From a gamma proteobacterium symbiont of Ctena orbiculata (lineage in GTDB: Bacteria; Pseudomonadota; Gammaproteobacteria; Chromatiales; Chromatiaceae), in the NCBI GenBank assembly GCA_003058525.1, contig QBVD01000063.1, positions 25,842-89,841 on the forward strand: a stretch of 64,000 nucleotides of DNA. The letters run 5' to 3'. Numbering within the stretch: the first letter of the stretch is position 1; every line of letters starts with the position of its first letter. The position numbers were made by a program, and so were the translations under genes. The notes beneath the pieces were generated by a model, which did no database searches, had not been told where the DNA came from, and was given only the letters and a program-made list of their open reading frames with translations. Shown in pieces: positions 19,861-59,665 of this stretch.

Positions 19861-22245
19861 GTGATGATGAAGCCTAAAAAGATCGGGCGGTTTCAGGTTG
19901 GAGAACAACTGGGTGTTGGCAATCAGGGTACGGTCTATCTCTGTCACGACAGCCAGCTGCAACGCAAGGTTGCGATTAAACTGCTCAACAAGTCGCTGCA
20001 GGAATCATCGTTTCTGGATGAAGCCCGGGCGGCTAGTAAGCTCCAGCATGCCAATATCGTCTCCATCTACGAGGCCGGTGAGCACCAGCAGATACCCTAC
20101 CTGGTGTTTGAGTATGCACAAGGCGAACTACTGAAAGACCTGATCAATGGTGAGCCTTTGGAGGTGGGTGATGCACTGCGGATCTTTCAGGGCCTGCTGG
20201 AAGGCATGGGCCAGGCCCACAAGGCAGGTATAGTCCATCGTGACCTGAAGCCGGCGAACATCATTATCAGCGAGGATAAGGTTCCGAAGATAATGGACTT
20301 CGGCATCGCCCGCCTTTTATCGGAGGCAAAGGGCCCGGATCGTCAACTAATCGGTACACCCAGATACCTGGCGCCGGAGTACATCCAAAGAGGTGAAGTC
20401 GGGCCGCAGGCTGATGTTTTTGCCCTTGGTTTGATTCTGGATGAGATGTTGACCGGAATGCCTGTGTTTAGCGGTCACAATCAGCAGATCGTCATCGATG
20501 CCATTCTCAAGCTGGAGGTGAAGCCCCCATCCCAGTTCAATCCGGCAGTGGATGAGAAGCTCAACCGCTTCATCCTCAAGTCCCTGGAAAAAGATCCTGT
20601 CTTACGTTACAGCGATGCAATCGAGATGTTGCAGGCCTTCAATGAGATGCGTGGCGTGACAGGGGAAAAACTGAGTGTCGAAGAAGATGCGAGCGGTACG
20701 GTGGAGTTCCTGCTCCGGCGGATGAAAAGGAAGAGCGACTTTCCCGCATTGTCGCAGTCGGTGCGCAGCATCAATGCCATGGCCGATGCCAGCAATAAGG
20801 ATGTCAATCAGATGGCGGGCGTCATCGTCAAGGATTTTGCATTGACGAACAAGATCCTGAAGGTGGTCAACTCCGCCTACTATGGACGCTTCTCCGGAAG
20901 AATCGGAACCGTATCGCGGGCAGTCGTGGTTTTGGGTACACAAGCTATCCGCTCGTTGGCGGCCTCTTTGATTTTTTTCGAGCATATCGAAAACAAGCAG
21001 CAGGCCGAACACCTCAGGGAGCTGGTCTCTTCGGCGATGTTCCGTGCAACCCTGGCACACAAGGTGGCGGATGAAATCGATCAGAAGGAGGCCGAGGCCT
21101 ATTTTCTTACCGGTTTGTTGAACGACCTGGGTAAGTTGCTGGTGGCATTCTATCTACCTGATGAGTCACAGGAGATTGATCGGCTGATCAAGGTCGATGG
21201 CAAGGAACCGGTCGCGGCGCAGCACAGCGTGCTGGGTGTCAGTTTCGAAAAGATCGGGATTGAGATCGCCGGGCAGTGGAATTTTCCCAAGTCACTCATC
21301 GATAGTATGAAGCATTGGCAGGGGGATCATAAACCGGTCAACCGATTGGAGCGCAGACGTCTGGTCACCGCATTTGCCGATGATGCCATGGCGGTGATGA
21401 TTGAATCGGGGCTCGACAGCAAATCCGCAATGGAAAGCCTGGCTAAAAAATATGATAAGGGGCTCAACATCACGAACAAGCAGATCTCTCGATTCGCCAC
21501 TCGGTCCATAGAAGAGTTTCAGGAAGTGGCGAAGGCGATATCGGGCGATATATCAGATCAATTCATACAAAAACTCACCTCAAAAACCGATGATTTGCAA
21601 TCCCATAAGGGGGTTGAAAAAAGTAAACCTAAAGCTATGGACAAGGACGGTTTGTCCGAAACACAGATTCTGGATGAAGAGGGTACCCAGACAGTCCGAT
21701 CGACAGCCTCCGAGGATAATCCTCCAGCAACTCCGGAAGATGCGGAAACCCTGCTGATGGATGGCCTGCAGGAGGTGACGGGCATGCTGGTGGGAAACCA
21801 CAGTGTATCCGAAATCTTCAACGTGGTGCTTGAAACCATGTACCGCGCGGTTGGCTTTCAAAGAGTCGTGTTGGCGCTACTGGATCGCAAGCGGGGGGAG
21901 ATGGTGGGCAGATTGGGTTTCGGCAGTTCCGCCGATGAGTTTGTCGAGCTGTTCCACTTTCCCACGGTATATAGCGTGGATGTCTTTCATGGGGCATTGA
22001 AGAATGCCGTGGATGTCTATATCGCAGATACCACCGAAGGGAAGATTCAGGCCGATATTCCCGAATGGTACAAGCAGATCTCCAGTGCGGGATCATTTCT
22101 GCTCTTTCCCCTGGTGGTTAAAAACAAAGCGGTCGGTTTGATCTATGCGGATCATTCCAGTCCGCACGGTCTGGATATCGATAAAAAGAGACTCAATCTG
22201 CTGAAGTCTCTCAGAAATCAGATTGTATTGGCGGTGAAATCCTAG
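19861..22245 (+). CDS. Ser/Thr protein kinase fused to HDOD and GAF domains
   Basis: Three modules in one 794-aa cytoplasmic protein. Residues about 8-265 are a complete Hanks-type kinase: G-V-G-N-Q-G-T-V-Y loop, V-A-I-K lysine, H-R-D-L-K-P-A-N catalytic loop, D-F-G, and a Y-L-A-P-E activation segment end. Residues about 285-490 are an HDOD domain (F-A-L-T-N-K-I-L-K-V-V-N-S-A-Y-Y and G-L-L-N-D-L-G-K). A linker of acidic and Lys-rich sequence leads to a C-terminal GAF domain (about 640-790). All kinase catalytic residues are present. HDOD domains work in signalling, so this looks like a signal integrator with a small-molecule input. Start codon is GTG, with two ATGs following directly. Confidence 0.92.
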   Translation: MMMKPKKIGRFQVGEQLGVGNQGTVYLCHDSQLQRKVAIKLLNKSLQESSFLDEARAASKLQHANIVSIYEAGEHQQIPYLVFEYAQGELLKDLINGEPLEVGDALRIFQGLLEGMGQAHKAGIVHRDLKPANIIISEDKVPKIMDFGIARLLSEAKGPDRQLIGTPRYLAPEYIQRGEVGPQADVFALGLILDEMLTGMPVFSGHNQQIVIDAILKLEVKPPSQFNPAVDEKLNRFILKSLEKDPVLRYSDAIEMLQAFNEMRGVTGEKLSVEEDASGTVEFLLRRMKRKSDFPALSQSVRSINAMADASNKDVNQMAGVIVKDFALTNKILKVVNSAYYGRFSGRIGTVSRAVVVLGTQAIRSLAASLIFFEHIENKQQAEHLRELVSSAMFRATLAHKVADEIDQKEAEAYFLTGLLNDLGKLLVAFYLPDESQEIDRLIKVDGKEPVAAQHSVLGVSFEKIGIEIAGQWNFPKSLIDSMKHWQGDHKPVNRLERRRLVTAFADDAMAVMIESGLDSKSAMESLAKKYDKGLNITNKQISRFATRSIEEFQEVAKAISGDISDQFIQKLTSKTDDLQSHKGVEKSKPKAMDKDGLSETQILDEEGTQTVRSTASEDNPPATPEDAETLLMDGLQEVTGMLVGNHSVSEIFNVVLETMYRAVGFQRVVLALLDRKRGEMVGRLGFGSSADEFVELFHFPTVYSVDVFHGALKNAVDVYIADTTEGKIQADIPEWYKQISSAGSFLLFPLVVKNKAVGLIYADHSSPHGLDIDKKRLNLLKSLRNQIVLAVKS

Positions 22246-22357: not shown

Positions 22358-23083
22358 ATGTCTGGTGCTCGGATTTCAGTCTCACAACTGGAAGCCGTAA
22401 TGTTGGGATTCAACGCCATATTTAACATAGTGAAAGCATATAGCACTAAAGATTCGCTGATCTTGTTTCTGACATGCATCATGCTAATGTCTCCGGGACA
22501 TATCAGTGCATGTGGTTGGTGGGGTGACGGTGAAGTCAATAGGGAGGATAACGAAGAAATAACGACACCGGATGGAAGGGTGTTGCCCCACATAGTAAAC
22601 CATCACTCATCAAAGCTTCCGGGACGGATGGGTTACGGCATTGCAATACCTGATCCGGGTCGTGCCATTCCTTATCTGCAGGCGACCATGGGACGCCCGC
22701 TCAATCGTATTGCGGAGCTGAGCGCGTTCGGGTTTAAAACGGTCATCGATATCGGTACATCTGAAAAGAGTGCTCGTCTGCACCGAAAGGAGACCGAAGT
22801 GCTTGGTATGCGCTATATAAGCATACCGGTAGACGGCAACCTGCCGAGCCGGGAGCAGGTTGAGGATTTCACTCAACATGTTGTAGATGCCAGCCATGGA
22901 ATGCTGTTGGTCTATGCCCCAAGATCAGAACTGCTTGGGACTATGTGGGCGGCCTACCGGATGAATCTTGGCGCACCTGTCGGCTTCGCCATTAAGGAAG
23001 GCAGAGAACTCGGTATGCTGCCTGATCAAGAGATTACTCTTCGTAATCGTTATGGATCAAAAAAAGACCCTGAAACGCCCTAG
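22358..23083 (+). CDS. Exported phosphatase-like (DSP/DUF442-type) protein lacking catalytic Cys
   Basis: A hydrophobic stretch (about residues 40-50 from this start) ends in H-I-S-A-C-G-W-W-G-D-G-E, a possible lipobox (I-S-A-C) or signal cut, so it is probably periplasmic; the true start may be internal. The folded part (about 105-225) resembles dual-specificity phosphatase/DUF442 domains: F-K-T-V-I-D-I-G-T early, Y-I-S-I-P-V-D-G in the middle, and V-Y-A-P-R-S-E-L-L-G-T-M-W where the P-loop should be. Aligned to the usual H-C-x5-R, the Cys is Ala and the Arg is Leu. Catalysis as a phosphatase is unlikely. The last codons overlap a minus-strand terminator. Confidence 0.75.
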   Translation: MSGARISVSQLEAVMLGFNAIFNIVKAYSTKDSLILFLTCIMLMSPGHISACGWWGDGEVNREDNEEITTPDGRVLPHIVNHHSSKLPGRMGYGIAIPDPGRAIPYLQATMGRPLNRIAELSAFGFKTVIDIGTSEKSARLHRKETEVLGMRYISIPVDGNLPSREQVEDFTQHVVDASHGMLLVYAPRSELLGTMWAAYRMNLGAPVGFAIKEGRELGMLPDQEITLRNRYGSKKDPETP

Positions 23084-23153: not shown

Positions 23154-23807
23154 CTAGGCGGCTGTTTCGGTTACTAGACTCTGCTCTTCGAGCTTAAGGA
23201 AACTGTTTGTCAACTTAGCCAGTTCCCGGTAAAAAGGAATACCTGCCTGCGCTATCACCGCATCACAGAACTTGGGTATCCAACCCAGAATATGCTGTTG
23301 CAAGAACATGCGCTGAATTGACAGGCAGTACTCGGCACTGATGCGATCCATCTCTATCCACTTGTCGGTTTCCCAATCGGCCAGCTTCTGCATGAACTCA
23401 AGTTCAACGCTGATATGATCAGGCAGCCCCGTGAACTGGGAAGCGTAATCAAGTCCGGTTGTCTCGATAAACTTCTTCACTTCAACTGTTCTGGCGCCCC
23501 ATAAACCACCTGAGTCACCATCCACTTCAGTGAAAATCGATTCATGGGCGGAAATATGCCGTCCAGGACCTATGAACAGGCGCGAAAATTCAAGCGCAAG
23601 TTGATCGGCTATGGTTGATACGGGTTCGCTGTAAAAAGAGCTCCCCATTTCCAGCTCCATGTCCGAGAAGGCCCCCGCCAAGCGGGGCCCCCTCAGTTCG
23701 TTGATGAAGGCTTCGCTGGGCTCCTGCCGAAAGACCAGGGTCAATAACCCATACATGTCACTTCTTGTTTTGGCGTTATCGGCCATTTTATTCCAGTCGG
23801 TTCCCAT
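23154..23807 (-). CDS. TorD/DmsD-family molybdoenzyme chaperone
   Basis: A 217-aa all-helical cytoplasmic chaperone that usually binds the Tat signal of a partner molybdoenzyme until cofactor is loaded. Family landmarks are Y-G-L-L-T-L-V-F-R-Q-E-P near the N-terminus, the central E-F-S-R-L-F-I-G-P-G-R-H-I-S-A-H-E-S, and the D-H-I-S-V-E-L-E-F-M motif at about 130. These last two are the classic TorD signatures. It is the last gene of the operon, 29 bases downstream of the molybdoenzyme, its evident client. Confidence 0.93.
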   Translation of the reverse strand: MGTDWNKMADNAKTRSDMYGLLTLVFRQEPSEAFINELRGPRLAGAFSDMELEMGSSFYSEPVSTIADQLALEFSRLFIGPGRHISAHESIFTEVDGDSGGLWGARTVEVKKFIETTGLDYASQFTGLPDHISVELEFMQKLADWETDKWIEMDRISAEYCLSIQRMFLQQHILGWIPKFCDAVIAQAGIPFYRELAKLTNSFLKLEEQSLVTETAA

Positions 23808-23836
23808 TTCAGCTCTCCTCTTTCAGTAGACTCAAT

Positions 23837-26362
23837 TTATGCCTTGGCTACCCTGACGACGGTATCCATCCACCGCTGTGTGCCGCTGATAGGATCTGAT
23901 GAGTTGGGGATGATGGTATTGGGATGAGTACCATGCTTTTTCCACCATATATTCTTCACATCCGGATCAGCCGCGGCGCCTCCCGGTGTGGGAGAACGCT
24001 TGCCCGAACCATAGACCCCCGAGTGCTTGCGACCCAGGTGATGGGATATGGCGATCACACCCGGAATGATGCCTTCGGTAACATAGGCTGTGGTGGTGAT
24101 CTCACCCAGGCTGTTATAGACCCTGATCTTGTCTCCATTCTTAATACCGCGTGCTTCAGCCGTCTTGGTATTGATCCAGCCGGGATTGTCGTGCTTGATC
24201 TCGGTGAGCCACTTGCAGTGCGCGGTCCTTGAATGGGTATGTACCGCCACCTTGTAGGTGGTGAGATTCAGCTCATCATCCGCCATCTTCTGGTGTTCGG
24301 GAATCGGCGTATAGGATGGGAATGCCGGAAAACCCTTGTTGGCGAAATTATCTGAATAGAAGTCCAGATAACCTGCCTTGACGAACTTGGTATTGGGTGG
24401 ATAGGCCAGGTAAGCCGTGCCATCGATATTTTGCGCGACATAGGCCTTTTTAGCGCCTTTCGTACCCAGATACCCTTGACGCTTGGCTTCGGCTTCACTG
24501 CCGACACCTGCCTTTTTCCAGTTCCAGTAGACACCGGTCTTCTCATCGAGAATCACGCCATCGCCGGACACGTCCACCTTGGCCTCATAGAAGCCGTAGT
24601 TGGGTTTGGCCTTCGGATCGTGCCATACGCCTTGCTTCTTCATATACTCGAAGCCTCCGGCTTCCCGCACACCGGGTGTCATCTCACAGGACTGACGTAC
24701 GAAGTCTTCCTTGCTTGAGTATGCCAGTTCAAAGCCCATGCGCTTGGCCAGCTCAGGCCAGACATCGCCCTGGCAACGTGATTCTCCCAGGGGTTTAACC
24801 AACGGCTGCCGGATATAGAACTCGGCGATCTGGTTTGCCGACACCATGTCCTCCCAGTCCCAGCGCTCCAGGTATGTGACGTCGGGTAGGATCAAGTCTG
24901 CATACTGAGATGATTCGTCATAGACGATGGTTGTTGAAATAAGGAAGGGGATAATACTTTCATCCCGCATAATCGACTGCAGTTCCTTGTTGTCGCCATT
25001 GATGAATCCCGGGTTGTAGCAACTCCACCAGTAGACCTTCGGTCGACCCGCCTGGCCATCCTTGATCATCGGTAGCACCTGGTGGCTTACATGGTGAGTC
25101 GGGTAGGCCGCTTCACCCGGAAACCCGTCCTTGACGTGGAGCGTTTTGTGGACCTTCGCCTTGGGGGAGGAGGGATGTTTCCAGCCTGCTCCAACACCCA
25201 TGACACGTCCACCCGGACGATCGAGATTGTTGGTGATCGCTGACAACAGCATTGCCGCCCGCTCCTGATCCGCGCCGTGATAGTGCATTACGGTTCCACG
25301 GTAGGTGACCAGGCAGGCTGATTTGGCTTTTGCGAACCCGCGAGCGATTTTGCGTATGGTATCGGCTGGCACACCACTCTGTTTCTCTGCAAACTCGGGG
25401 GTATACTTAGCGACATTTTTCTTCACCGCTGCAATCTTCTCATCGACAGTCGCTTTGTAGTTTTCGCTGACACGCATGAATTTGAAGTGATCCTTCCTGT
25501 AGAGTTTCTCGTTCATGATGACATTACACATGGCCAGCATCACCAGTCCATCATGTCCCACTTTGATCGGTACCCACTGATCGGCCTTGGCCGCTGTGTT
25601 TGTCAGGCGCACGTCAAATACATATAAGGGTACGCCACGATCAACCTTGGCCCGGATCAGTCTCTGGGCAGTCGGAATATGGTTGGTATGGGTCTCAAAC
25701 TGATTACTGCCGAAAATCACTACGTAATCGGTGTTGTCATAATCCCAGTTGTCATACATGCCACCCCACAGACTCTCCTGTCCTACCCATTTTGCCGCCT
25801 CACAGACAGAGGTGTGATTACCGATGGTGCCAGTGCCGTAGGCCTGCATGAAGTCGTACATGGTGGCAGCCTGGGACGCCTTGTGTCTGCCGTACTGATA
25901 CATGAACAGCTCAGGGGTACCCGCATCGCGCAGGGGTTTCAGCTTGGATACGATCAGGTCAAGGGCCTCATCCCAGGAAATACGCTTCCATTTGTGCTCG
26001 CCACGTTTGCCTGCGCGTTTCATCGGGTGCAGGATCCGGTCGGGGAAGTAGACCTGGTTGATGCCCGCCTGTCCCTTGGCGCAGAGTTTGCCGAGTGTAC
26101 GGATGGAATCGGGATGTCCTTCGAGCTTTACCAGGCGTCCATCTTCTACATAACCGATCATGGAGTCTCGGGTTACACACTGCCAGCAGGCCGTGGGAAT
26201 TGCCTGTCTCTCCTTACCTGTTGTGGGTGAAAAATCCTTGCCGCCCGCCTGCAGTTTAAGCGATCCGGCAAATGCACTCTGACTGCAGCCCAATCCGGCT
26301 GCCAATGCGCAACCGCTGCCGGCGGTCAGTTTCATGAAATCACGACGATTTAACTTTTTCAT
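23837..26362 (-). CDS. Tat-exported molybdopterin oxidoreductase, catalytic subunit (DMSO reductase family)
   Basis: An 841-aa periplasmic enzyme. A Tat signal, N-R-R-D-F-M-K-L, starts the protein. The Fe-S region reads A-C-W-Q-C-V-T-R-D-S, with L-C-A-K-G about 30 residues later. Compared with the family C-x2-C-x3-C pattern the third Cys is Asp, so the cluster may be non-standard or absent. The likely Mo ligand is the Cys in H-T-S-V-C-E-A-A (about residue 190). The MGD-binding C-terminus has H-T-H-S-R-T-A-H. The layout places it near the PsrA/PhsA/ArrA/ArxA group; the arsenate (R-G-R-Y) and ArxA-type motifs are not seen at Y-R-G-T-V-M-H-Y-H-G. Substrate unknown. Confidence 0.92.
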   Translation of the reverse strand: MKKLNRRDFMKLTAGSGCALAAGLGCSQSAFAGSLKLQAGGKDFSPTTGKERQAIPTACWQCVTRDSMIGYVEDGRLVKLEGHPDSIRTLGKLCAKGQAGINQVYFPDRILHPMKRAGKRGEHKWKRISWDEALDLIVSKLKPLRDAGTPELFMYQYGRHKASQAATMYDFMQAYGTGTIGNHTSVCEAAKWVGQESLWGGMYDNWDYDNTDYVVIFGSNQFETHTNHIPTAQRLIRAKVDRGVPLYVFDVRLTNTAAKADQWVPIKVGHDGLVMLAMCNVIMNEKLYRKDHFKFMRVSENYKATVDEKIAAVKKNVAKYTPEFAEKQSGVPADTIRKIARGFAKAKSACLVTYRGTVMHYHGADQERAAMLLSAITNNLDRPGGRVMGVGAGWKHPSSPKAKVHKTLHVKDGFPGEAAYPTHHVSHQVLPMIKDGQAGRPKVYWWSCYNPGFINGDNKELQSIMRDESIIPFLISTTIVYDESSQYADLILPDVTYLERWDWEDMVSANQIAEFYIRQPLVKPLGESRCQGDVWPELAKRMGFELAYSSKEDFVRQSCEMTPGVREAGGFEYMKKQGVWHDPKAKPNYGFYEAKVDVSGDGVILDEKTGVYWNWKKAGVGSEAEAKRQGYLGTKGAKKAYVAQNIDGTAYLAYPPNTKFVKAGYLDFYSDNFANKGFPAFPSYTPIPEHQKMADDELNLTTYKVAVHTHSRTAHCKWLTEIKHDNPGWINTKTAEARGIKNGDKIRVYNSLGEITTTAYVTEGIIPGVIAISHHLGRKHSGVYGSGKRSPTPGGAAADPDVKNIWWKKHGTHPNTIIPNSSDPISGTQRWMDTVVRVAKA

Positions 26363-26395
26363 ATCAATTCCTCTCTTAATACAGGCTCTCAGGGT

Positions 26396-27247
26396 CTATG
26401 GAATCTGGTCCACAAAGTGGTCCAGTTTGCCCTTCTTTCGCTGTGTATAGAGGGTTTTCAACATGTTGTCGGGATCGATGTAGAACACATGAGGAATGGT
26501 TCCCTCTTCCGGAAGCAGCACGTTGTCAGCCTTGGCCAGGTTGTGCTCTTTTACAAGCTTGGAGACTTCACTGTTCGGGTCGTTGAGGTCACCGAAAATT
26601 CGTGCACGTCCCTGGCAAGTGTTGACACAGGATGGCTCGACCCCGTTATCGACACGATGAGCACACATATCGCATTTGTCCGCAGCCTGCTTTGTAGGAT
26701 CAGCACCCGCTTTGACAAAGGGATCAAATGAACGGACGCCGTAAGGGCAGGCATCGATACACTTGCCGCAGCCGATACATTTTTCTTTGTCTATCAGGAT
26801 CAAGCCATCAGGACGTTTATAGGTCGCACCCGTGCGATAACGTATGGTTTTGCCATCAGCCGTCTTGAACTTGGCCCGTTTGCCTGGAAATTCCGGACAG
26901 GCTTTGACACAAGGTGGAACACCATCTTTCTCATTGCCCTCGCAGTGATTGCACATCAGGGGCAGGAATTCCTTCTTGGTATTTGGAAATGTACCCATGG
27001 TTTTCTCTTGGACGACAGCCCGGAAACGGCCCAAAGAGACGTCGTTTTCAGATTTGCAGGCCACGGTACAGGCCCTGCAACCTATGCAGCGCCTGAGGTC
27101 CATCACCATCGCCCAACGGGGTGCTTTTGATTGAGCCGCTTCAAGACTCACCTTCGGTGTCGCCAATGTCGCAGCGCCTATCGCGGCTGTGCCTACACCA
27201 CTTAGAAATTTGCGACGGTTGACGTCTGGTGTTTTGTTGTCACTCAT
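26396..27247 (-). CDS. Four-cluster 4Fe-4S subunit with Tat signal
   Basis: The electron-transfer beta subunit for the neighbouring molybdoenzyme. A twin-arginine signal (N-R-R-K-F-L-S-G-V-G) is present, unusual for beta subunits that ride piggyback but known in periplasmic DmsB/PsrB-like proteins. Four Cys groups follow: C-I-G-C-R-A-C-T-V-A-C, C-N-H-C-E-G with C-V-K-A-C-P, C-I-G-C-G-K-C-I-D-A-C-P, and C-D-M-C-A-H-R with C-V-N-T-C. The ATG at 27247 has AGGAG eight bases upstream and overlaps the cytochrome stop by 8 bases. Confidence 0.94.
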   Translation of the reverse strand: MSDNKTPDVNRRKFLSGVGTAAIGAATLATPKVSLEAAQSKAPRWAMVMDLRRCIGCRACTVACKSENDVSLGRFRAVVQEKTMGTFPNTKKEFLPLMCNHCEGNEKDGVPPCVKACPEFPGKRAKFKTADGKTIRYRTGATYKRPDGLILIDKEKCIGCGKCIDACPYGVRSFDPFVKAGADPTKQAADKCDMCAHRVDNGVEPSCVNTCQGRARIFGDLNDPNSEVSKLVKEHNLAKADNVLLPEEGTIPHVFYIDPDNMLKTLYTQRKKGKLDHFVDQIP

Positions 27248-28829
27248 ATCGTATTCTCCTACGCATCTCCTCACCCTCCGCTACAGTTGATTGTGTGGTT
27301 TTTGCAAGATCATCACTACTTCTCGTCTCTTCCAATAGCTCAATGGTGTCTTCAAAATTGCCGAATGCACCGTCGAGAATGTTTACTGCGTACTTTTTGT
27401 TATGTACGCCGTTTCCAACGCGTACAATATTGAGAAGCTCACTTCCCTTGGCTAGCATTTCCTCTGCTTGGGTCAAACTCTCATTGTCCAATCTATCCTT
27501 CAGTTCGGCGAAGAGATCTCTGGCTTCCTTCTCAACCTCTTCCACGTCCGCTACTTCAGTTGTGAGTAATTCCTTCCAGTCACTGAGCATTTTTCTGTGC
27601 TGTTCGGTATGGCAGGCAGCACAGGTATCGCCTGATGCAGTTCTCACATCATGCCCTTTACTCAGCGTCTTCTTGAGATGACAGCCCATACAGTTTGTGT
27701 TGACTTCATACATAAGATGCGGGTCACCCGAGATGTCCTCATCAACAGGAGAGCCTGAAAGTAATAACCTTTGATACTTATGCTGGTCGACATGACAGAG
27801 CTGACAATCATTGCGTACGAAATCAAGATGGTCAGTTCTGTTCTTATGTTCGATCACGCTGTGACAATCGAAGCAGTCAGCCTTGTTCGGCACATGCTTG
27901 CCATGCATGAGTTCGCGGTCGCCTGCGGTTGCCAGTAACGTCTGACTTCTGTTATGGCAGGTAAGACAGCCGTTCGAGACGACATTTCCGGTATCAATCG
28001 CTCCCTCCCCGCTCACCATTTCGAAGTGGCAACTCTCACACGCAACGCCTGATTCCTGTATTGTCTGATGGGTGATCGGTTTTTTGGTACTGGCGGGGTC
28101 GCCTGCCTGTAACTGGCTTTGAAGCGATTTTGTCGGGATCGTGTGGCAGATATCACAACGGGAGACCCCTTGATTGAAATCGATGGCCGGTTTGTTGACA
28201 AAAGTGATTTTCTTAATGTCCCCATTGGCCATCTCCGCTTTGTCAAGTGTGGGTTTGTCCAGTTTAAGGTGACAAAGGAAACAGATATCTTCAGGCACCT
28301 CGAAGTGCTTTTTCTCCGTTGTCTTGAAATGGCATGTATCGCAGGTGATTTGGTGGCCGTCGAGAGCCTTATCACTAAAGTGAACCTGGTGTTTGAAACG
28401 GACCCGGTCAGTAAACTGTATCTCCACCAGTGACAGTTTTTCACGGTTGTGACAGCCGGACTGTAAACATGCGCCATCCTTGATCACAGGGCGGATGGGT
28501 AGGGGAGCATCCCGGTCATAAAGGTAGGCTGCAAGGTGGCGTAATCCTTCGTACTTGGCCTTCATGGAATGCTTCTCGCCTGGTAAAAAGTGGCAATCGA
28601 CACACTCCGCTTGCATGCCGTCCGGATTATTGCTCTTGTAGTGATAGTTTGACTTCCAGGCTTCGTACTGTTCTGTCATGGTGTGGCAGCTGCCCCCACA
28701 AAAAGACGACTGCGATGTGTAATACTCAAAACCGCCCCAGGCTGTTAAGAGAAACAGAACTGTTCCCGTGAAGATCAGTACCATCAGTCGCCAGGTAACT
28801 CTTAATTCAATTCCAGCGCCACTATTCAT
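27240..28829 (-). CDS. Membrane-anchored 12-haem c-type cytochrome with NapC-like N-terminus
   Basis: Opens the operon. One N-terminal membrane helix (about 13-32) anchors a periplasmic domain. I count twelve haem motifs in 529 aa: ten standard CxxCH (CVDCH, CDTCH, CFLCH, CDICH, CESCH, CLTCH, CFDCH, CQLCH, CMGCH, CAACH), plus CGGSCH (CX3CH, in the position of NapC haem 1, followed by T-M) and CLQSGCH (CX4CH). The last 120 residues have no haem and are helical and acidic. No NrfD-type quinol subunit is coded nearby, so this protein probably passes quinol-pool electrons to or from the Fe-S subunit. The 8-base overlap with the next gene indicates coupling. Confidence 0.92.
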   Translation of the reverse strand: MNSGAGIELRVTWRLMVLIFTGTVLFLLTAWGGFEYYTSQSSFCGGSCHTMTEQYEAWKSNYHYKSNNPDGMQAECVDCHFLPGEKHSMKAKYEGLRHLAAYLYDRDAPLPIRPVIKDGACLQSGCHNREKLSLVEIQFTDRVRFKHQVHFSDKALDGHQITCDTCHFKTTEKKHFEVPEDICFLCHLKLDKPTLDKAEMANGDIKKITFVNKPAIDFNQGVSRCDICHTIPTKSLQSQLQAGDPASTKKPITHQTIQESGVACESCHFEMVSGEGAIDTGNVVSNGCLTCHNRSQTLLATAGDRELMHGKHVPNKADCFDCHSVIEHKNRTDHLDFVRNDCQLCHVDQHKYQRLLLSGSPVDEDISGDPHLMYEVNTNCMGCHLKKTLSKGHDVRTASGDTCAACHTEQHRKMLSDWKELLTTEVADVEEVEKEARDLFAELKDRLDNESLTQAEEMLAKGSELLNIVRVGNGVHNKKYAVNILDGAFGNFEDTIELLEETRSSDDLAKTTQSTVAEGEEMRRRIRYE

Positions 28830-28898
28830 TGCCTTTGTTTTCCCCCAGTCGGGCAGACTGTGTTCACTCGGCTTTGCGTTTATATGTCTCAGGACATC

Positions 28899-28914
28899 AG
28901 CAAGAGTCGTTCCA
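28899..28914 (-). promoter_or_regulatory. Sigma-54 (RpoN) promoter of the respiratory operon
   Basis: On the minus strand the sequence is TGGAACG-N4-TTGCT, one base from the consensus TGGCACG-N4-TTGCW, with correct GG/GC spacing. It points at the 12-haem cytochrome gene; the start site would be about 60 bases before the ATG. A sigma-54 activator is coded 2.8 kb away in the divergent operon. Confidence 0.85.
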
Positions 28915-28977
28915 GGTTATTATCTGTTTGAAAAAAAGAGAAAAATATAAAGGTGAATAATTATTGATCCGGATTTT

Positions 28978-29087
28978 GTTACCTGTTGGTTACTTTTCGC
29001 TGAATTGCGTAACCATTGTGGTTTGTTCTTTAATTACATGCTGTTAGCAAAACAGCGCCTCACAGTATGTTACCGATAAGTAACATA
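28978..29087. promoter_or_regulatory. Phased GTTAC/GTAAC array, probable activator binding sites
   Basis: The strongest site is a perfect dyad, TATGTTAC-N6-GTAACATA (29066-29087). Further half-sites are GTTAC at 28978 and 28989 and GTAAC at 29009. Starts are 11, 20 and 11 bases apart within the groups, close to whole helical turns. They lie about 65-170 bases upstream of the -24 element, the usual distance for sigma-54 enhancer sites. Confidence 0.6.
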
Positions 29088-29377
29088 TCGAGATGTGGAG
29101 AGGCGCTCCGGAAAAGGCCTCTTCACTGTTCCTGAAAAAGCGCGTACAAACAGCTGGTCTGGATGCGGACAGTGGACGTATGCAACTAAAAAACAACAAC
29201 TTCCTGATTAAATAATGGATTCTGCTATCCTTGCAGAATAGCAATTATAAAAGTATGGGAAAGCGTAGCCGTTGACGATCTTTGTTCTCTGCAGGGAGCG
29301 TATGACGTTTGTCGTAATGCAGCTACCGTGACATAACTTAGCAGTATCCTGAGTAGTTGTTTTAGTGAGGATCCCAA

Positions 29378-30247
29378 GTGCGATTGACCTTTTTAATATT
29401 TCTTTTCTGGATTACTCCAATTTATGCAGTTGATACGGAAGCACCTATCCGTTTTGGTTTAACGGCTGTTGTGCCCACTGAAAATCTAAGATTTCTGGAT
29501 CAATGGAGTCAATACCTGGAGCAAAAAACAGGTCGCAAGGTCGAGTTTGTGCAGAGAAAATCTTATCGGGAAGTAATGGATCTGTTGGGCACGGGTGTTA
29601 TCGATTTCGCTTGGATCTGCGGTTATCCCTACATCCAGGCAAGAGAACCTGAATCACTTCAGCTCCTGACAGTGCCTATTTACCGGGGAGCACCACGTTA
29701 TCACTCTTATATAATTGTCCACCATAACAGTCCCTATAAACGCTTTAGCGACCTGAGAGGGAAGAGTTTTGCCTTCTCTGATCCTGATTCGAATTCAGGT
29801 TTCCTCTATCCACTGGCCTTGATTGCAAAAAAAGGTGAGAAGCCTGAGTCTTTTTTCCGTCAGACATTCTTTACCTTCAATCACGCTGAGACGGTACAAG
29901 CCGTTTCCGAGCAGGTTGCAGATGCTGGAGCCGTCGACTCGTATATATGGGAGTACATTGCCGTCTTCAAGCCGGATATTACTGAAAAAACCCGAATAAT
30001 AAAGAAATCGCCAAGCTTTGGTTTTCCACCTGTTGTTTACCGTTTAGGTGTAGATAGCGACATAGTAAAACAAATGAAACATACACTTGAAAATATGAAT
30101 CAGGATTTAACCGGACAGGAACTGCTCGGCCGGCTCAAACTGGATGGCTTCGGTGATTATTCCGATTCGTTGTTCAACGAAATCCGCGCTTTGGAAAATA
30201 CAGTTCAAAGCGTCGACCCCAGGTATTCCGTGGTACAAACAGATTAA
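29378..30247 (+). CDS. PhnD-like periplasmic binding protein, probable ligand sensor
   Basis: A 289-aa secreted protein of the phosphate/phosphonate/oxyanion-binding class. A signal peptide (about 1-17) is followed by F-G-L-T-A-V-V-P-T-E, a first lobe ending F-A-W-I-C-G-Y-P-Y, and a second lobe with L-R-G-K-S-F-A-F-S-D-P and A-V-D-S-Y-I-W-E. It is not next to ABC transporter genes but to a histidine kinase and response regulator, like AioX, ArxX and TtrS sensors for oxyanions. The Cys in W-I-C-G-Y is a candidate ligand residue. The start is GTG with GAGG nine bases upstream. Confidence 0.9.
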   Translation: MRLTFLIFLFWITPIYAVDTEAPIRFGLTAVVPTENLRFLDQWSQYLEQKTGRKVEFVQRKSYREVMDLLGTGVIDFAWICGYPYIQAREPESLQLLTVPIYRGAPRYHSYIIVHHNSPYKRFSDLRGKSFAFSDPDSNSGFLYPLALIAKKGEKPESFFRQTFFTFNHAETVQAVSEQVADAGAVDSYIWEYIAVFKPDITEKTRIIKKSPSFGFPPVVYRLGVDSDIVKQMKHTLENMNQDLTGQELLGRLKLDGFGDYSDSLFNEIRALENTVQSVDPRYSVVQTD

Positions 30248-30262
30248 TTATTCAGTATACAA

Positions 30263-31738
30263 ATGCCCATGATTAATCCGAAATCCTGGCCATTGGCGAT
30301 AAAGTTGTCCCTTACCATAACGGCCGTTGTTACATGCGTCGGATTCCTGATCGGAGTACTCATGGTTGTCCAGGACTGGAAACGATTTCAAAATGATCTG
30401 GGTGAAAAAGCACTGCTGCTATCTGAATCCATTTCAATCACTGCGCCAAAGGCGATGCTGCGAAAGGACTACTGGTCTCTTTACCTCAGTCTCAAGAATA
30501 TGGCATCCAAGGGACCTGGGGCCAGAAGCGAACACGAAATCACAGATGCGATGATATTGGATGCTGAAGGTATGGTTCAGGCCCATCTTCATCCCGCGAG
30601 GCATCCGATAGGTCTTGTCTTTTCACCGGATAGTGAAACTGAGAAAGCTATAACCAGCCAGGCGATGGCCGCAAGAACACCGACCGTGTTGAGCAGCGGC
30701 GGTTTTTCCAAAGATGGTTTTCAGGAGGGGGTCGTACCGCTGTTTTCAGATCAAAAATACCTTGGTGTGGTTCGGGTTCGTCTCTCTGTCGCCAGCCTGT
30801 TCGAAAAGGCGAAATCGACAGCCGTTATCGTTCTTCTGTCGATATTGCTCTTCGTCTTCATCGGCAGCCTGCTGGGTACCATAGTATCCAGGCGGGTTGT
30901 CGGGCCTCTGACCGCCATCACTCACGGACTTGAGGCGGTAGGACGAGGAGAGATGACCGACTTTTCGCCAATACCGGTGAAAGAGGGAGATGAAATAGGA
31001 AGGCTTAGTGTGACCTTCAATCAGATCATGTCTGAACTGGCGGAAAAAAAGATGCTCGAGGAGGAGATCGCAATGAGCGAGAAACTGGTTGCCTTGGGAA
31101 GAATTACTGCGGGTGTGGCGCATGAGGTGAATAATCCACTTGCAGGGCTTTTAAACTGCATAGATACACTGCGTCAGCATCCAAACGACAAGGAGTTGAT
31201 CGATCGTTACCTGCCGGTTATTGACCAGGGACTGCATCGGATTAAAGATATTGTTCATAACCTTCTCGTTGGACTTAGGAACGAGGAGAGTGATGAAATG
31301 ATAAACATCCAACAGGTCGACAAGCTTCATGATTTGATCCTGGCGGAAATAGGTGAAAGAGATATCAAAATATTCTGGAACAATACAACAGACAGAGATA
31401 CCTGTATTCCAGGAAAGACCGAACAGATAATCTGTAATTTGCTGAAAAACGCCGTTGAAATCATTCCCGAAAACGGAACCATTGATTTCAACATGCATCA
31501 AGAGGGAAGTCTTCTCGTCATCAAAGTCAGTGATAATGGCCCTGGAGTTGCCTCAAATATACGAAACCAACTGTTCGACCCTTTCTTTACAACCAAACCC
31601 AACGGCACCGGATTGGGACTGTGGGTTGTCTACCGTCTGGTTCAGAATATGCAAGGTATCATCGAGGTTGAGAGCGAGTTGGGAAAAGGTACGACTTTCC
31701 TCATCGAACTACCCGTAATCAGAAGGCAGGCAGCCTGA
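30263..31738 (+). CDS. Membrane sensor histidine kinase
   Basis: The 491-aa partner of the PhnD-like sensor. The order is: first membrane helix (about 11-31), periplasmic domain (about 35-190), second helix (about 193-210), HAMP (V-V-G-P-L-T-A-I-T-H-G-L), a HisKA domain with V-A-H-E-V-N-N-P-L, and an ATPase domain with D-N-G-P-G-V and G-T-G-L-G-L-W-V-V. Kinase boxes are intact. The stop shares one base with the following response regulator (TGATG), so the two are made together. Confidence 0.94.
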   Translation: MPMINPKSWPLAIKLSLTITAVVTCVGFLIGVLMVVQDWKRFQNDLGEKALLLSESISITAPKAMLRKDYWSLYLSLKNMASKGPGARSEHEITDAMILDAEGMVQAHLHPARHPIGLVFSPDSETEKAITSQAMAARTPTVLSSGGFSKDGFQEGVVPLFSDQKYLGVVRVRLSVASLFEKAKSTAVIVLLSILLFVFIGSLLGTIVSRRVVGPLTAITHGLEAVGRGEMTDFSPIPVKEGDEIGRLSVTFNQIMSELAEKKMLEEEIAMSEKLVALGRITAGVAHEVNNPLAGLLNCIDTLRQHPNDKELIDRYLPVIDQGLHRIKDIVHNLLVGLRNEESDEMINIQQVDKLHDLILAEIGERDIKIFWNNTTDRDTCIPGKTEQIICNLLKNAVEIIPENGTIDFNMHQEGSLLVIKVSDNGPGVASNIRNQLFDPFFTTKPNGTGLGLWVVYRLVQNMQGIIEVESELGKGTTFLIELPVIRRQAA

Positions 31739-33126
31739 TGCAGAATAGTATGGATCAGGCGATGGAGGCGGATAGCTACAAAGACTTGTGCCTGTTGTTG
31801 GTTGAAGATGATGAGATCATGCAAATATCGCTTGTTGACAGGCTGCGTATAGAATCAATACCCGTGCGTGCGGTAAGTGATATAGCGAGTGCAAGAAAAG
31901 AGTTGGAAAAAGGAGATATAGATCTTGTGGTAACCGATATCCGCCTGCCGGATGGCACAGGGATCGAACTCTTTACAGATATCTCAAACAATTATCCAGG
32001 CATACCCGTCATCCTGATGACGGCTTACGGCGATATATCGGATGCAGTCGCCACGGTTAAAGCCGGCGCTTTGGATTATCTGACAAAACCTTTTGACATT
32101 AATGAGTTCATCAAGAAGGTGACGCATCAGCTCTCCTGCATTTCCGATATTCAGTTAACGATCAACAACTCTGGCACTGATGATAATTACTTCAAACCGG
32201 GTAGTGGTTGTTTGGGAAAAAGCAACGCCATGCGAAAGATCGAGAGACTTGTGGCGCGACTCAGAGAGAGTGACAGTTCAGTATTGCTTACCGGAGAGTC
32301 CGGGGTTGGCAAAGAGGTCGTTGCAAACCTGATACACAACAATAGTCTCAGGTCACAGGGTCCCATGGTAAGTGTAAACTGTGCCGCTCTACCTGCCACA
32401 CTGATCGAAAGTGAGCTCTTTGGCCATGAAAAGGGGGCTTTTACCGGAGCGACACAACAACGAAAAGGACGTTTTGAGCAGGCCCAAGGCGGCACCATCT
32501 TTCTTGATGAGATCGCGGAAGTATCGTCCGATATACAGGTAAAACTATTAAGAGTGCTGCAGGAGAGGGAGTTCGAACGTGTTGGCGGATCTGTTTCAAT
32601 TGCACTTGATGTGAGGGTGATTGCCGCAACTCAGGCCAATCTCGATGTCGCTATTGAAAAAAATGAATTCAGGTCGGATCTTTACTGGCGTCTCAATGTA
32701 ATCAATATCGAAATTCCACCACTGCGGCAACGTAGGGAGGACATAGTCTATCTCGCCAGACAATTCGTCAGCCAACTGGGGCGATGCAAAAAGGGTGGCA
32801 TCAAAGGTCTGTCGAAGGAGGCTGAGCTCTGTCTTCAATCCATGTCATTCCCTGGGAATGTTCGTGAACTGAAGAATGTCATCGAAAGAGCTGTCGCCCT
32901 GTGCGAAGGGCCTTGGATAAGCCAAAGCGATCTTTCGATCACTGCCAGCAATACCCACACTCACGATACAACTACACTAAAAGAGACTATCGAAGAGGCT
33001 GAACGAAAGTCAATAACCAGGGCATTAGCGGATCATAACGGTAAAATCAATCAGACAGCAGATTCCTTGGGTATCTCGCGTAAAAACCTGTGGGAGAAGA
33101 TGAAACGCTACGAAATAGATAAGTAG
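31738..33126 (+). CDS. Sigma-54-dependent response regulator (NtrC family)
   Basis: The 462-aa activator expected to drive the adjacent operon. The receiver domain (about 15-130) has acidic pocket V-E-D-D-E, phospho-acceptor V-V-T-D-I-R, and the Lys in L-T-K-P-F-D. The AAA+ domain (about 160-390) has G-E-S-G-V-G-K-E, the sigma-54-contacting G-A-F-T-G-A loop, and D-E-I-A-E. The C-terminal Fis-type helix-turn-helix reads N-Q-T-A-D-S-L-G-I-S-R-K-N-L-W. All parts for phosphorylation-dependent activation are present. Confidence 0.95.
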   Translation: MQNSMDQAMEADSYKDLCLLLVEDDEIMQISLVDRLRIESIPVRAVSDIASARKELEKGDIDLVVTDIRLPDGTGIELFTDISNNYPGIPVILMTAYGDISDAVATVKAGALDYLTKPFDINEFIKKVTHQLSCISDIQLTINNSGTDDNYFKPGSGCLGKSNAMRKIERLVARLRESDSSVLLTGESGVGKEVVANLIHNNSLRSQGPMVSVNCAALPATLIESELFGHEKGAFTGATQQRKGRFEQAQGGTIFLDEIAEVSSDIQVKLLRVLQEREFERVGGSVSIALDVRVIAATQANLDVAIEKNEFRSDLYWRLNVINIEIPPLRQRREDIVYLARQFVSQLGRCKKGGIKGLSKEAELCLQSMSFPGNVRELKNVIERAVALCEGPWISQSDLSITASNTHTHDTTTLKETIEEAERKSITRALADHNGKINQTADSLGISRKNLWEKMKRYEIDK

Positions 33127-52630: not shown

Positions 52631-53605
52631 TCAGCCGCCAAGGGCCGACATCGGGCGAATGATCGCGGTCGGCGTTTCGCCGAAATGGTGTCGTTCCGGT
52701 TTGCGTGCAATGGCGGAGTGAATCGCCGCCTGTATGTCTGCATCCGTTGCACCCTCGCGCATCAGGGGGCGCAGTGCCAGCTTATCTTCCTGTCCAAGGC
52801 AGAGATGGAGATCGCCGCTCACGGAGACTCGTACACGATTGCAGGTTGCACAGAAGTGTTGTGACTGCGGGGTGATGAACCCGATTACGAGATCGGAGTC
52901 ATCGATCTGGAAATAGCGAGCCGGACCGCTTCCACGCATCGCCGCGGGTTGTAATTTATAGCGTTTATTAAGCCGTGCCTCGATCTCGGAGAGCGGCATG
53001 TAATGCTCAGAGGCGGACAGTCCGCCCTGACCGACCGGCATGGTTTCGATAAAGCGCAGGGTGAGGCTCCGTTCCATGCAGTACTCGATCATGCTCTCGA
53101 CTTCATCGTCGTTGATGCCCCGCATGATGACCATGTTCAGTTTTATCGGTGTCAGACCAACCGCCTGTGCACTGGCTATACCTTCCAAAACCGGTTGCAA
53201 CCGGCTGCCGGTGATCGTTTTAAATTTTTTCTCGTTGAGTGAATCGAGACTGATATTGAGTCGTGTCACGCCCGCATCGCTCAATGGTCCGGCAAATTGG
53301 CTGAGGCGGGAGGCATTGGTGCTGAGGGACAACTCCTCGATACCTTGAAGGGCGGCGATACGGCGGGCAATGTCCTCCAGCTCCTTGCGGACGAGAGGCT
53401 CACCTCCGGTGAGTCTGACATGTTTGACGCCAAGCGCGGCAAATTGAGCGATGAGCCGTTCCACTTCATCGGTAGTGAGCCAATCATCGGGTGTCTCGAA
53501 CGTTCTATGGCTCCTGGGAAGGCAATAAAAACAGCGAAAATCACAGCGATCTGTGACGGATAGGCGCAGGTACTCGATCCGTCTGCCGAACGTGTCACTT
53601 AGCAT
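52631..53605 (-). CDS. moaA: GTP 3',8-cyclase, molybdenum cofactor biosynthesis
   Basis: Radical-SAM enzyme of 324 aa that starts molybdopterin biosynthesis. The SAM cluster motif is C-D-F-R-C-F-Y-C-L-P; the second cluster is C-A-T-C-N-R-V-R with a later Cys in L-H-L-C-L-G. The chain ends in Gly-Gly, which is required in the family. Two molybdoenzymes in this window need its product. It lies just downstream of nap on the same strand. Confidence 0.96.
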   Translation of the reverse strand: MLSDTFGRRIEYLRLSVTDRCDFRCFYCLPRSHRTFETPDDWLTTDEVERLIAQFAALGVKHVRLTGGEPLVRKELEDIARRIAALQGIEELSLSTNASRLSQFAGPLSDAGVTRLNISLDSLNEKKFKTITGSRLQPVLEGIASAQAVGLTPIKLNMVIMRGINDDEVESMIEYCMERSLTLRFIETMPVGQGGLSASEHYMPLSEIEARLNKRYKLQPAAMRGSGPARYFQIDDSDLVIGFITPQSQHFCATCNRVRVSVSGDLHLCLGQEDKLALRPLMREGATDADIQAAIHSAIARKPERHHFGETPTAIIRPMSALGG

Positions 53606-53859
53606 GGCCGCCTCTCACACAATCATTTTCTGTCATTATAGACCTATCAGTCAAACTAATCATTCAACGGGATTGGGAAAAGGTCAACCGTTTTCCCTCA
53701 GTCGCTGAATATGCCGCTACAGCTTCTCAAAGACTGCATTCATAACCTGGGTGGCTGACGGTGCACCCTGCTAATAAGGGATTTACCGACAGGATTTCTT
53801 AACCGTTTGATTACAAAGTACTTTTAATTGAGTGCTGGAAAAATGCCCGTATGTCCATA

Positions 53860-54432
53860 TCAAAACTCGGCGTTGGGATCGAACCCTTCGGGGAGTGAAT
53901 GGGCAATCCCTTTATGGCAATCGATACAGGTTTTTTGCGGTTCCTTTCCATCCACAGCGTCCCAGTAGTGAGGATCGTGCTGCTCGGAACTGCGTGGTGC
54001 CTGTCTGTCCAGATCCATTGAGACGAACTTGTGGCAGTTACGGCACTCCCGGGAGTCGGTCTTCTTCATCGAGCGCCAAACATTCTGTGCCAGCTCGAGA
54101 CGCTTGGCTTCGTACTTCTCCGGCGTGTCGATGGTTCCCAGCATCTTGTGGTAGAGCTCATTGGTCGCCTGAATCTTGCGCACGACTTTGTGGATCCACT
54201 CCTTGGGGACATGGCAGTCAGGGCAGGTGGCGCGAACACCGGTCCTGTTGGTGAAGTGGATCGTCTCCTGCAGCTCTTGGTAGACCGTCTGTTCCATTTC
54301 ATGGCATGAGATACAGAAGGTTTCGGTATTTGTCATCTCCATTGCGGTATTGAATCCGCCCCAGAGTATGATACCGGCAACGATACCGACGGCTATCAGG
54401 AACAGCCCGCCTTTTTTCTTACTTTCGTTCAT
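53860..54432 (-). CDS. napC: Tetrahaem quinol dehydrogenase of the Nap system
   Basis: NapC/NirT family cytochrome of 190 aa. One membrane helix (about 9-30) is followed by four haem motifs (C-I-S-C-H-E-M, C-P-D-C-H, C-R-N-C-H, C-I-D-C-H). It takes electrons from menaquinol or ubiquinol and passes them to NapB. It is the last gene of napFDAGHBC. Confidence 0.96.
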   Translation of the reverse strand: MNESKKKGGLFLIAVGIVAGIILWGGFNTAMEMTNTETFCISCHEMEQTVYQELQETIHFTNRTGVRATCPDCHVPKEWIHKVVRKIQATNELYHKMLGTIDTPEKYEAKRLELAQNVWRSMKKTDSRECRNCHKFVSMDLDRQAPRSSEQHDPHYWDAVDGKEPQKTCIDCHKGIAHSLPEGFDPNAEF

Positions 54433-54517
54433 ACTTACTTTTCACTAGTTGAATTGTCTACTGCTATTCAGTGAATCGTGGCCGCCTCCATTCGAGGCGA
54501 CCCGATTCGGCTGAATA

Positions 54518-54943
54518 CTATTTGGCACCTTGAAAGCTGTTTTGCACCAGGGGATCCGCGCCCACCTGGGGTGCATGGCACTGGTTACAGAAGTATCGGC
54601 GGCTGGAGATAGTCTTCAGAACCTTGCCCTCACGATCCTCATAGTGGCTATCACCCACCTTGGGCGCCTTCTCTTTCTCGTAGGTGGCTTCGCTGTGACA
54701 TTTCATGCAACCGTTGTTCTTCAGGTTGACTTCGTATTTGTCCACTTCGTGCGGCACCATGGGCGGTTGCAGCTTGAAGCTTCTTTCGATGCCGCCTTTC
54801 ACATTGACGAGCTTCAGGTCGGCCGGTTTTTTCGCCATGGTGTCGAGTGCATCGCCACGCAGCGATTGAACGTCGGCCAACAGGGCAGTCGACAGGAACA
54901 TGGTTGCGATTGCCGCAAGTGTCAGTAGTGCGATTTTTTTCAT
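54518..54943 (-). CDS. napB: Dihaem electron-transfer subunit of periplasmic nitrate reductase
   Basis: A 141-aa periplasmic cytochrome with signal peptide (about 1-23) and two haems, C-M-K-C-H and C-N-Q-C-H, plus the family P-P-M-V-P-H motif. The ATG at 54943 has AAAGG directly upstream; an upstream start at 55087 would bury the signal peptide. It donates electrons to NapA. Confidence 0.96.
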   Translation of the reverse strand: MKKIALLTLAAIATMFLSTALLADVQSLRGDALDTMAKKPADLKLVNVKGGIERSFKLQPPMVPHEVDKYEVNLKNNGCMKCHSEATYEKEKAPKVGDSHYEDREGKVLKTISSRRYFCNQCHAPQVGADPLVQNSFQGAK

Positions 54944-54992
54944 ACCTTTCTCCATCATCACTCTCATAAACAGAATTGGTTTGATGTGCCGG

Positions 54993-55901: not shown

Positions 55902-55902
55902 G

Positions 55903-56760: not shown

Positions 56761-56838
56761 GACTGATGTGATACTGCGATTCAGTGCTCCGTTTTCAGTT
56801 AACCGCCGGTCCGGTTGCCCGGACCGGCACCGCACAAG

Positions 56839-59409: not shown

Positions 59410-59665
59410 GGTTCATTTCCTCCATCGACTCTTCACCGCCAAAGTGATAAATCAAAACAGTGTTCACGACGCCTTTCACGTCACGAAGGGCATTCATGGT
59501 GTCTGACACGGGTGACATCGACTCACCCTCGTCCTCAATAGTGACAATCAATTTGTCTTCCTCGGTTCCTCCATGGACCTCGACTCCCTGGAACCCTTGC
59601 AGGCGTTGGCACACCTCGGCTCCCTGGGTCGGTTTGGTATGGACGATCAAGCTGCATATATTCAT
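59396..59665 (-). CDS. napD: NapA-signal-binding chaperone
   Basis: An 89-aa ferredoxin-like-fold protein that binds the Tat signal of NapA and prevents early export. It starts M-N-I-C-S-L-I-V and has G-V-E-V-H-G and [10 protein letters not shown] family segments. It overlaps both napF (4 bases) and napA (14 bases). Confidence 0.93.

Follow-up and report, generated by a model that had tools for sequence, protein, structure and literature searches.

What does the divergent pair of operons at positions 23154-33126 of the stretch analysed here sense, and what does it respire? The stretch (the window) comprises 64,000 nucleotides of contig QBVD01000063.1 from a gamma proteobacterium symbiont of Ctena orbiculata, whose genome assembly amounts to 4.7 Mb in 112 contigs. 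A first-pass annotation had described a self-contained, sigma-54-controlled molybdoenzyme system acting on a sulfur or metalloid oxyanion. Its seven genes are all present where they had been placed, and Pfam domains confirm each of them: a cytochrome, an iron-sulfur (Fe-S) subunit, a molybdoenzyme and a chaperone on the minus strand, and a periplasmic sensor (X), a sensor kinase (S) and a sigma-54 response regulator (R) divergently on the plus strand. The answer proposed here, tentatively and at somewhat under an even chance, is that the two operons form an arsenite-induced system that would oxidise arsenite to arsenate in the periplasm and pass the electrons to the cytochrome. That arsenic is the substrate is considered probable; given arsenic, oxidation is the likelier direction, a judgement made with slightly more reserve. 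Arsenic now leads among the candidate substrates because the sensor belongs with AioX, ArxX and ArrX, and a sulfur oxyanion was dropped as first choice on account of both this kinship and a Gly-Arg motif in the enzyme.

Sensor X and the molybdoenzyme

The sensor gene (29378-30247, plus strand) was assigned to the AioX/ArxX/ArrX type by Pfam, by sequence match to the structure database and by tree. Against the PDB the protein scores 213 bits with AioX and 145 with ArrX, compared with 61 for PtxB and 58 for PhnD, and it is 41% identical to AioX (6esk), 40% to the ArxX of Sulfuricella and 30% to ArrX. According to PMC5908839, the AioX pocket consists of Tyr88, Cys106, Tyr131, Ser161, Ser163, His192 and Asp210, of which Cys106 is missing in PhnD; all seven are kept in the window's sensor, and these positions are fixed or nearly fixed over 46 other sensors. 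At the positions of AioX Val56 and Phe57 the window's sensor has Val, where ArrX has Met and Ile. The same source reports that arsenite is bound by AioX and ArxX and arsenate by ArrX, and that AioX and ArxX bind none of thiosulfate, tetrathionate, selenate, sulfate, antimonite or the other oxyanions tested (PMC5908839). By sequence, X is a member of the AioX/ArxX/ArrX subfamily and is predicted to bind arsenic. Of the earlier comparison of this regulator set with AioXSR, ArxXSR and TtrSR, control of the AioXSR/ArxXSR kind has held, whereas a generic PhnD-type or TtrS-like sensor has not; TtrS-like sensing was rejected because a phmmer comparison of the sensor with two TtrS-like open reading frames (one of which reaches 274 bits of 750 with the TtrS profile) gave no match at E = 100.

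In the sensor tree a very long outgroup branch carries the root and both ArrX and outgroup rows are long, leaving the root and exact places unsure. There the window's sensor forms a group of its own with those of loci L009, L011, L012, L016 and L031 (support 92/91), and some core-clade sensors are unplaced. Among sensors encoded beside other members of the enzyme family, that of L007 groups with AioX (100/100), those of L070, L072, L117 and one of the two of L071 group with the Sulfuricella ArxX (100/99), and those of L043, L052, L067 and L074 group with ArrX (100/100), the ArrX-type sensors standing beside relatives from Desulfobacterota, Nitrospirota and Aminicenantes. L007 encodes an enzyme 80% identical to that of the window and a sensor that shares 52.4% identity with AioX and only 37.8% with the window's sensor, as if, judging from these identities, a swap between arsenic sensors had taken place.

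The catalytic subunit (23837-26362, minus strand; 841 aa) belongs by its domains PF00384, PF04879 and PF01568, all above cut-off, to the dimethyl sulfoxide (DMSO) reductase (MopB) superfamily; it has an Fe4S4 domain and an N-terminal RR motif, and export by the twin-arginine translocation (Tat) pathway is predicted. Cys187, which is invariant in 43 aligned family members and aligns with the Cys of ArrA and ArxA, is by homology the predicted molybdenum ligand, as in the sulfur/arsenic/selenium branch. The structural model (predicted local distance difference test, pLDDT, 85.7) has two tied nearest folds, ArrA (6cz7) and PsrA (2vpw), of which PsrA is also the first match in the PDB sequence search. 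Scores on the NCBIfam models for ArrA (171 of 1600 bits), TtrA (113 of 1750) and the Aio large subunit (27 of 359) all fall short. In a tree of 68 rows (AnrA, SrdA and SrrA not among them, TtrA-type and PhsA-type rows standing in for the SrdA/SrrA lineages) ArxA and ArrA form one clade (100/100) that is separate from the clade of the enzyme family (100/100); a single clade uniting the enlarged group with ArxA/ArrA (22 rows) was not rejected (approximately unbiased test, p-AU 0.268). No characterised clade among those included takes in the enzyme, which thus appears to lie in no characterised family among those compared, and this supports the first-pass view that the system is of a regulated, respiratory type and departs from the Arr, Arx, Ttr and Psr layouts; the refuting outcome named in the first pass, a place within a characterised clade, did not arise in this tree.

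Near the catalytic pocket, XGRGWG marks ArxA and (R/K)GRY marks ArrA, as given in PMC6549141. The window's enzyme has YGRHK followed by HTSVC, so that the RGRY reported missing is indeed replaced by Y-G-R-H. The pattern xGRxx with a downstream H[TS]x[VIL]C occurs in all 120 listed closest relatives, none of which has GRGW, and likewise in all 120 listed members of the Azoarcus KH32C group. Thirteen of the 68 tree rows do not match it: six PhsA-type and three TtrA-type rows, DmsA, NapA, L120 and the Sulfuricella ArxA, which in the alignment has YGRGW but H-S-S-M-C downstream. The Gly-Arg motif itself is common to ArrA, ArxA and the enzyme family, and is found neither in the thiosulfate, tetrathionate and DMSO enzymes tested nor in PsrA.

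The genome also encodes a further MopB enzyme (L109; G000:C49:20000-39219), which lies on the ArrA side, with RGRY and 1133 of 1600 bits on the ArrA model. Its operon contains genes for a multihaem cytochrome (PF11783, presumably of the octahaem tetrathionate reductase type), cytochrome b561, an Fe-S protein and a TorD-like protein, with no XSR set in that region of L109.

Direction of the reaction and competing readings

The gene order, the domains and haem motifs, the kinship and pocket of the sensor, the sigma-54 site with its conservation, and the position of the enzyme outside the compared clades are all read from the sequence. In the mechanism proposed on this footing, arsenite would bind sensor X, and the signal would pass via kinase S to activator R, which would switch on the sigma-54 promoter of the operon that starts with the cytochrome gene. 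The enzyme and the Fe-S subunit would be exported by Tat, arsenite would be oxidised at the molybdenum site, and the electrons would travel via Fe-S clusters to the NapC-type 12-haem protein and then to the quinone pool or other c-type cytochromes; the final acceptor may be oxygen or nitrate (the window also contains napA).

The cytochrome (27240-28829, minus strand) contains twelve haem motifs, as had been counted earlier: ten CXXCH, one CX3CH (residue 44) and one CX4CH (residue 121). Twelve are also present in 42 of 44 related open reading frames, the exceptions, L003 and L020, being truncated at the end of a contig or having a late start. The NapC/NirT-type Cytochrom_NNT domain (PF03264; 59.9 bits against a cut-off of 24.1) covers residues 14-101 only and is accompanied by a predicted anchor helix; the NrfH model reaches 51 bits of 134. 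The structural model is of low confidence (pLDDT 61.5). At the C-terminus an invariant GxGVHNxKY motif lies inside a confidently modelled helical bundle. Foldseek gave weak matches to this model (best E 0.064), of which the first eleven are all NrfA, octahaem nitrite reductase or MccA; the resemblance of the C-terminal helices to this class is a hint from modelling and was not used as evidence. In L040, L043 and L052 (Desulfobacterota and another bacterium) the operons are larger and encode an Fe-S protein, a membrane-type protein, 8-haem and 12-haem proteins, a further Fe-S protein and the enzyme, with an additional 18-haem protein in L040 that has MtrC-like and NrfB-like domains.

Arsenic (ars) genes were scanned for with 14 seeds over 85 loci (nine seeds on the window), and the count was made without formal control. 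They are clear in six of the 85 (L003, L004, L031, L038, L069 and L103, with L003 and L004 close kin) and doubtful in L016 and L049. In L038 arsC, arsA, arsD and ACR3 directly follow the chaperone gene; L031 has ACR3 and ArsJ with its glyceraldehyde-3-phosphate dehydrogenase (GAPDH), L003 and L004 have ArsJ with GAPDH, and L069 has a contig-edge fragment of ACR3. NCBIfam cut-offs are passed by ArsJ (L003, L031), its GAPDH (L004), ACR3 (L031, L038) and ArsD (L038), while in L038 ArsA reaches the cut-off only of the broader TRC40/GET3/ArsA model and ArsC reaches none. On plasmid pAZKH of Azoarcus sp. KH32C, arsC, arsD, arsA and ACR3 adjoin a sister operon, with X-S-R between them, and ArsJ (612 bits of 400) lies beside the arx-type operon of L112. 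ArsJ exports an arsenate product. Chance linkage is put at below 1% per locus, purely as an estimate from the one or two ArsJ copies per same-genus genome. ArsJ is present in 15 of 16 genomes of the window's genus and adjoins the operon in G005 only; uniform ars linkage was rejected, being clear in only six of the 85 loci and not general in the genus either.

Direction is the weak point of the proposal. Oxidation is favoured by the likeness of the proteobacterial sensors to AioX and ArxX, by the ArsJ genes that adjoin relatives and the arx-type operon of L112, by napA in the window, and by the separate RGRY-type enzyme on the ArrA side in the same genome; reduction is favoured by the ArrX-type sensors of the relatives from Desulfobacterota, Nitrospirota and Aminicenantes. 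It is possible that family members run in different directions, matched by sensor class. Several observations weigh against arsenite oxidation by the window's system. With the nine seeds no ars genes were found in the window, and ArsJ lies elsewhere in its genome. The six-row group of the window's sensor falls inside none of the AioX, ArxX and ArrX groups, and resemblance to AioX within Proteobacteria points to arsenite less strongly than might appear, because sensor type partly follows taxonomy (stated for XSR in PMC5908839). The best NCBIfam match of the enzyme is PhsA, at half the cut-off; the family lies outside ArxA/ArrA in the trees and its enzyme here lacks both signature motifs; and the family appears set apart from the known arsenic and sulfur enzymes compared, with AnrA outside that comparison. 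Because the Gly-Arg motif also occurs in the uncharacterised L105 and L122 outside the family (and is missing in L120, of a looser circle), the pair, as aligned, is shared with arsenic enzymes and is not exclusive to them, its flanks being the family's own. Finally, an N-terminus of the NapC/NrfH type is usual in proteins that deliver quinol electrons to reductases, and in the cytochrome it favours reduction.

This last point bears on the same arsenic system run in reverse, in which a respiratory arsenate reductase would receive quinol electrons through the NapC-type 12-haem cytochrome and the signal would be arsenite or arsenate. This is judged unlikely: the PF03264 domain with its partial NrfH score, the ArrX-type sensors in the three other phyla and the ArrA structure among the two nearest folds fit it, but the window's sensor is nearer to AioX and to the Sulfuricella ArxX than to ArrX, its Val residues differ from the Met and Ile of ArrX, the host genus is sulfur-oxidising, and the same genome already has a separate RGRY-type enzyme on the ArrA side. 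An enzyme of the family of AnrA or its sister acting on antimony (antimonate/antimonite), with arsenic only a co-signal, is an improbable reading. AnrA is encoded with Fe-S, membrane, chaperone and regulator genes, a gene order resembling that of the relatives with an NrfD gene, and ACR3, found beside relatives, may also export antimonite. PMC13284237 names AnrA as an Sb-specific respiratory reductase. Against this, antimonite is not bound by AioX or ArxX in PMC5908839, and no AnrA-named match was seen among the best 120 listed in each of three protein searches, most of which are nameless. The enzyme could not be identified as AnrA: 20 of 395 sampled genomes of the phylum of L076 have a match at E<=1e-70, 18 of the 20 being only 31-43% identical, and none could be named.

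Comparably improbable is a sulfur oxyanion or polysulfide as substrate, which part of the first-pass reading and some database names suggest ('thiosulfate/polysulfide reductase'; other named members of the lineage are filed as 'DMSO reductase', 'anaerobic selenocysteine-containing dehydrogenase' or 'molybdopterin-dependent oxidoreductase'). The hosts are sulfur oxidisers, PhsA is the top NCBIfam match, PsrA is both a tied nearest fold and the first PDB sequence match, and the PhnD-like kinases TtrS and ThsS sense tetrathionate and thiosulfate (PMC5408782); yet the PhsA score of 338 bits is under half of the 694 cut-off, the family keeps a Gly-Arg motif that PhsA-type, TtrA-type and PsrA sequences lack, and the phmmer comparison gave no match between the window's sensor and the two TtrS-like open reading frames. 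The least probable reading gives the enzyme an organoarsenical as substrate, or some other oxyanion of trigonal or tetrahedral shape (selenite, selenate, iodate). It is compatible with the catalytic versatility of the neighbouring TtrA/SrdA/alternative ArrA family described in PMC10100899 and with the many relatives that come from marine samples, but the sensors of relatives group with arsenic sensors. Arsenite oxidation is retained as the preferred reading.

Operon layout, conservation and the accessory gene

Coordinates and Pfam confirm that the cytochrome, Fe-S subunit, molybdoenzyme and TorD chaperone lie in one operon, as first described. The Fe-S subunit (26396-27274, minus strand) is TtrB/DsrO/ArrB-like by score, with no cut-off reached, and has an N-terminal RR motif; the TorD/NarJ-type chaperone (PF02613) occupies 23154-23807 on the minus strand. 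Profile searches assign the kinase with its HAMP domain (30263-31738, plus strand) and the response regulator with sigma-54 activator and Fis-type helix-turn-helix domains (31738-33126, plus strand). The open reading frames of the block include no NrfD gene by Pfam, in agreement with the earlier statement, and no Rieske subunit gene by profile searches. The sigma-54 promoter that had been placed between the operons was located as a -24/-12-like site, TGGAACGACTCTTGCT (28899-28914, minus strand), which matches 11 of 12 consensus positions; the distance from it to the start codon of the cytochrome gene downstream is 85 nt. Of 38 equivalent upstream regions (window included), 31 match 10 or more of the 12 positions, compared with 0.3 expected from single-base shuffles, and a site at that level is missing in the other 7; the regions are mutually related and not independent trials, so that the count reflects conservation more than repeated trials.

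A one-genome-per-species scan confirmed 113 relatives of the enzyme, of which the best 80 loci were kept and their neighbours sought by tblastn with the window proteins. The cytochrome gene is present in 45 of the 80, and sensor, kinase and regulator are all present in 35 of these 45 (some of the remaining ten end at a contig edge) and in 8 of the 35 loci that lack the cytochrome. An NrfD-type gene cluster occurs in 17 of the 80, all without the cytochrome; PF03916 is shown for two tested members. Within the window's genus (G000-G020) the enzyme is at least 78% identical in 17 of 21 genomes, and L001 (NZ_MARB01000013.1, Candidatus Thiodiazotropha endolucinida) is 99% identical. The layout is thus, by sequence comparison, not unique to this genome and is conserved in many alpha- and gammaproteobacteria. 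In one gammaproteobacterial locus diverged enzyme copies are paired nearby (L054, L055, L058), in two separate family clades. A sister group (P0121-P0240, L103, L118), which has named members in Rhodocyclales (Azoarcus, Thauera, Sulfuricystis), shows about 39-42% identity to the window's enzyme in the members compared and contains the KH32C member, whose surroundings include NrfD, XSR and an ars operon. None of the names listed belongs to a characterised member.

The description as self-contained omits the gene at 22358-23083 (plus strand), relatives of which are encoded close to the operon elsewhere. Its product, predicted to be secreted, has a predicted signal peptide (judged by eye), followed by the motif CGWWGDGE and then a domain resembling dual-specificity phosphatases (PF22741; 27.0 bits, at cut-off). 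The phosphatase signature HCx5R is lost in all 17 aligned phosphatase-type rows, that of the window included, and a role of this neighbour as arsenate reductase was rejected because the catalytic Cys is missing in all 17. In a six-frame search of 2.09 Mb, most of it from enzyme-family loci and with a small control, the frames of more than 100 codons with C.W[WGA]G[DE] lay in the window, at 19 of the 80 loci and at L117, all of them loci of the enzyme family; the gene seems, on this distribution, to belong with the operon. The same N-terminal CGWWG[DE] motif stands on Sel1 repeats in L059, L069, L071, L072 and L117, adjoining the enzyme family, and because the short tag is common to unrelated domains it suggests a putative docking role. 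The accessory gene is adjoined at 19861-22245 by a gene whose product is a fusion of a protein kinase domain with HDOD and GAF domains. Further along, a nap (periplasmic nitrate reductase) gene set occupies 52631-60213; NapA scores 1461 bits against a cut-off of 904, the NapC/NirT-type cytochrome of the set is below cut-off, and the remaining nap genes and moaA were assigned by eye.

A broader proposal, held with a shade less confidence than that for the window itself, is that the family represents a separate arsenic-respiring molybdoenzyme lineage found in Proteobacteria, Desulfobacterota, Nitrospirota and further phyla. Within it both the class of sensor (AioX-, ArxX- or ArrX-type) and the electron carrier (NapC-type 12-haem cytochrome or NrfD) would have been repeatedly exchanged, and marine alpha- and gammaproteobacteria, clam symbionts included, would oxidise arsenite through a 12-haem wire with the CGWWGD accessory protein. 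The parts are of known kinds (MopB enzyme, NapC-type cytochrome, XSR regulators); in the openly licensed papers searched, none on the lineage, the gene combination or the arsenic link was noticed. If the proposal is true, arsenite oxidation (or arsenate respiration) is undercounted in marine and animal-symbiont settings, as probes for aioA, arxA and arrA would be expected to miss the lineage. It would also give a testable substrate to a large group without a characterised member among the names listed, and one enzyme family coupled to three arsenic sensor classes would be a natural experiment on the co-evolution of sensor and enzyme direction.

Comparison with known systems

The system resembles Arx (arxB2ABCD with arxXSR; the pSCD cluster of Sulfuricella denitrificans, L106, is named arx in PMC6549141) in its MopB enzyme, Fe-S subunit, TorD chaperone and divergent X-S-R set with sigma-54 activator, as well as in the arsenic pocket of X, the Gly-Arg motif and a sensor that is of the arsenite type by sequence. 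However, ArxA lies in another clade and has GRGW where the window has YGRH, and Arx possesses an NrfD membrane subunit and the extra Fe-S protein ArxB2, whereas the window has the 12-haem cytochrome. Unlike ArrAB (Shewanella ANA-3, 6cz7), the window's enzyme has no RGRY, scores poorly on the ArrA model, belongs to a separate clade and shares its operon with a 12-haem cytochrome. With AioXSR the block has in common the sensor type, including every pocket residue of AioX, and the adjacent kinase and sigma-54 activator; unlike Aio, the block has no AioBA enzyme and no Rieske subunit. PsrABC/PhsABC provide the top NCBIfam match by score and one of the tied nearest folds, but the score is half the cut-off, the Gly-Arg motif is not in Psr or Phs and the clade is another one; no XSR was seen beside the E. 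coli phs genes. For the NrfD-bearing sister operons (Sedimenticola, Aromatoleum and the Azoarcus sp. KH32C plasmid) no function was found in the openly licensed papers searched. They share the Fe-S subunit, TorD and X-S-R with the window, their enzymes being 53-54% identical to its own in L071 and L070 and 39% in KH32C, and they differ in carrying the NrfD membrane protein (PF03916) in place of the 12-haem cytochrome.

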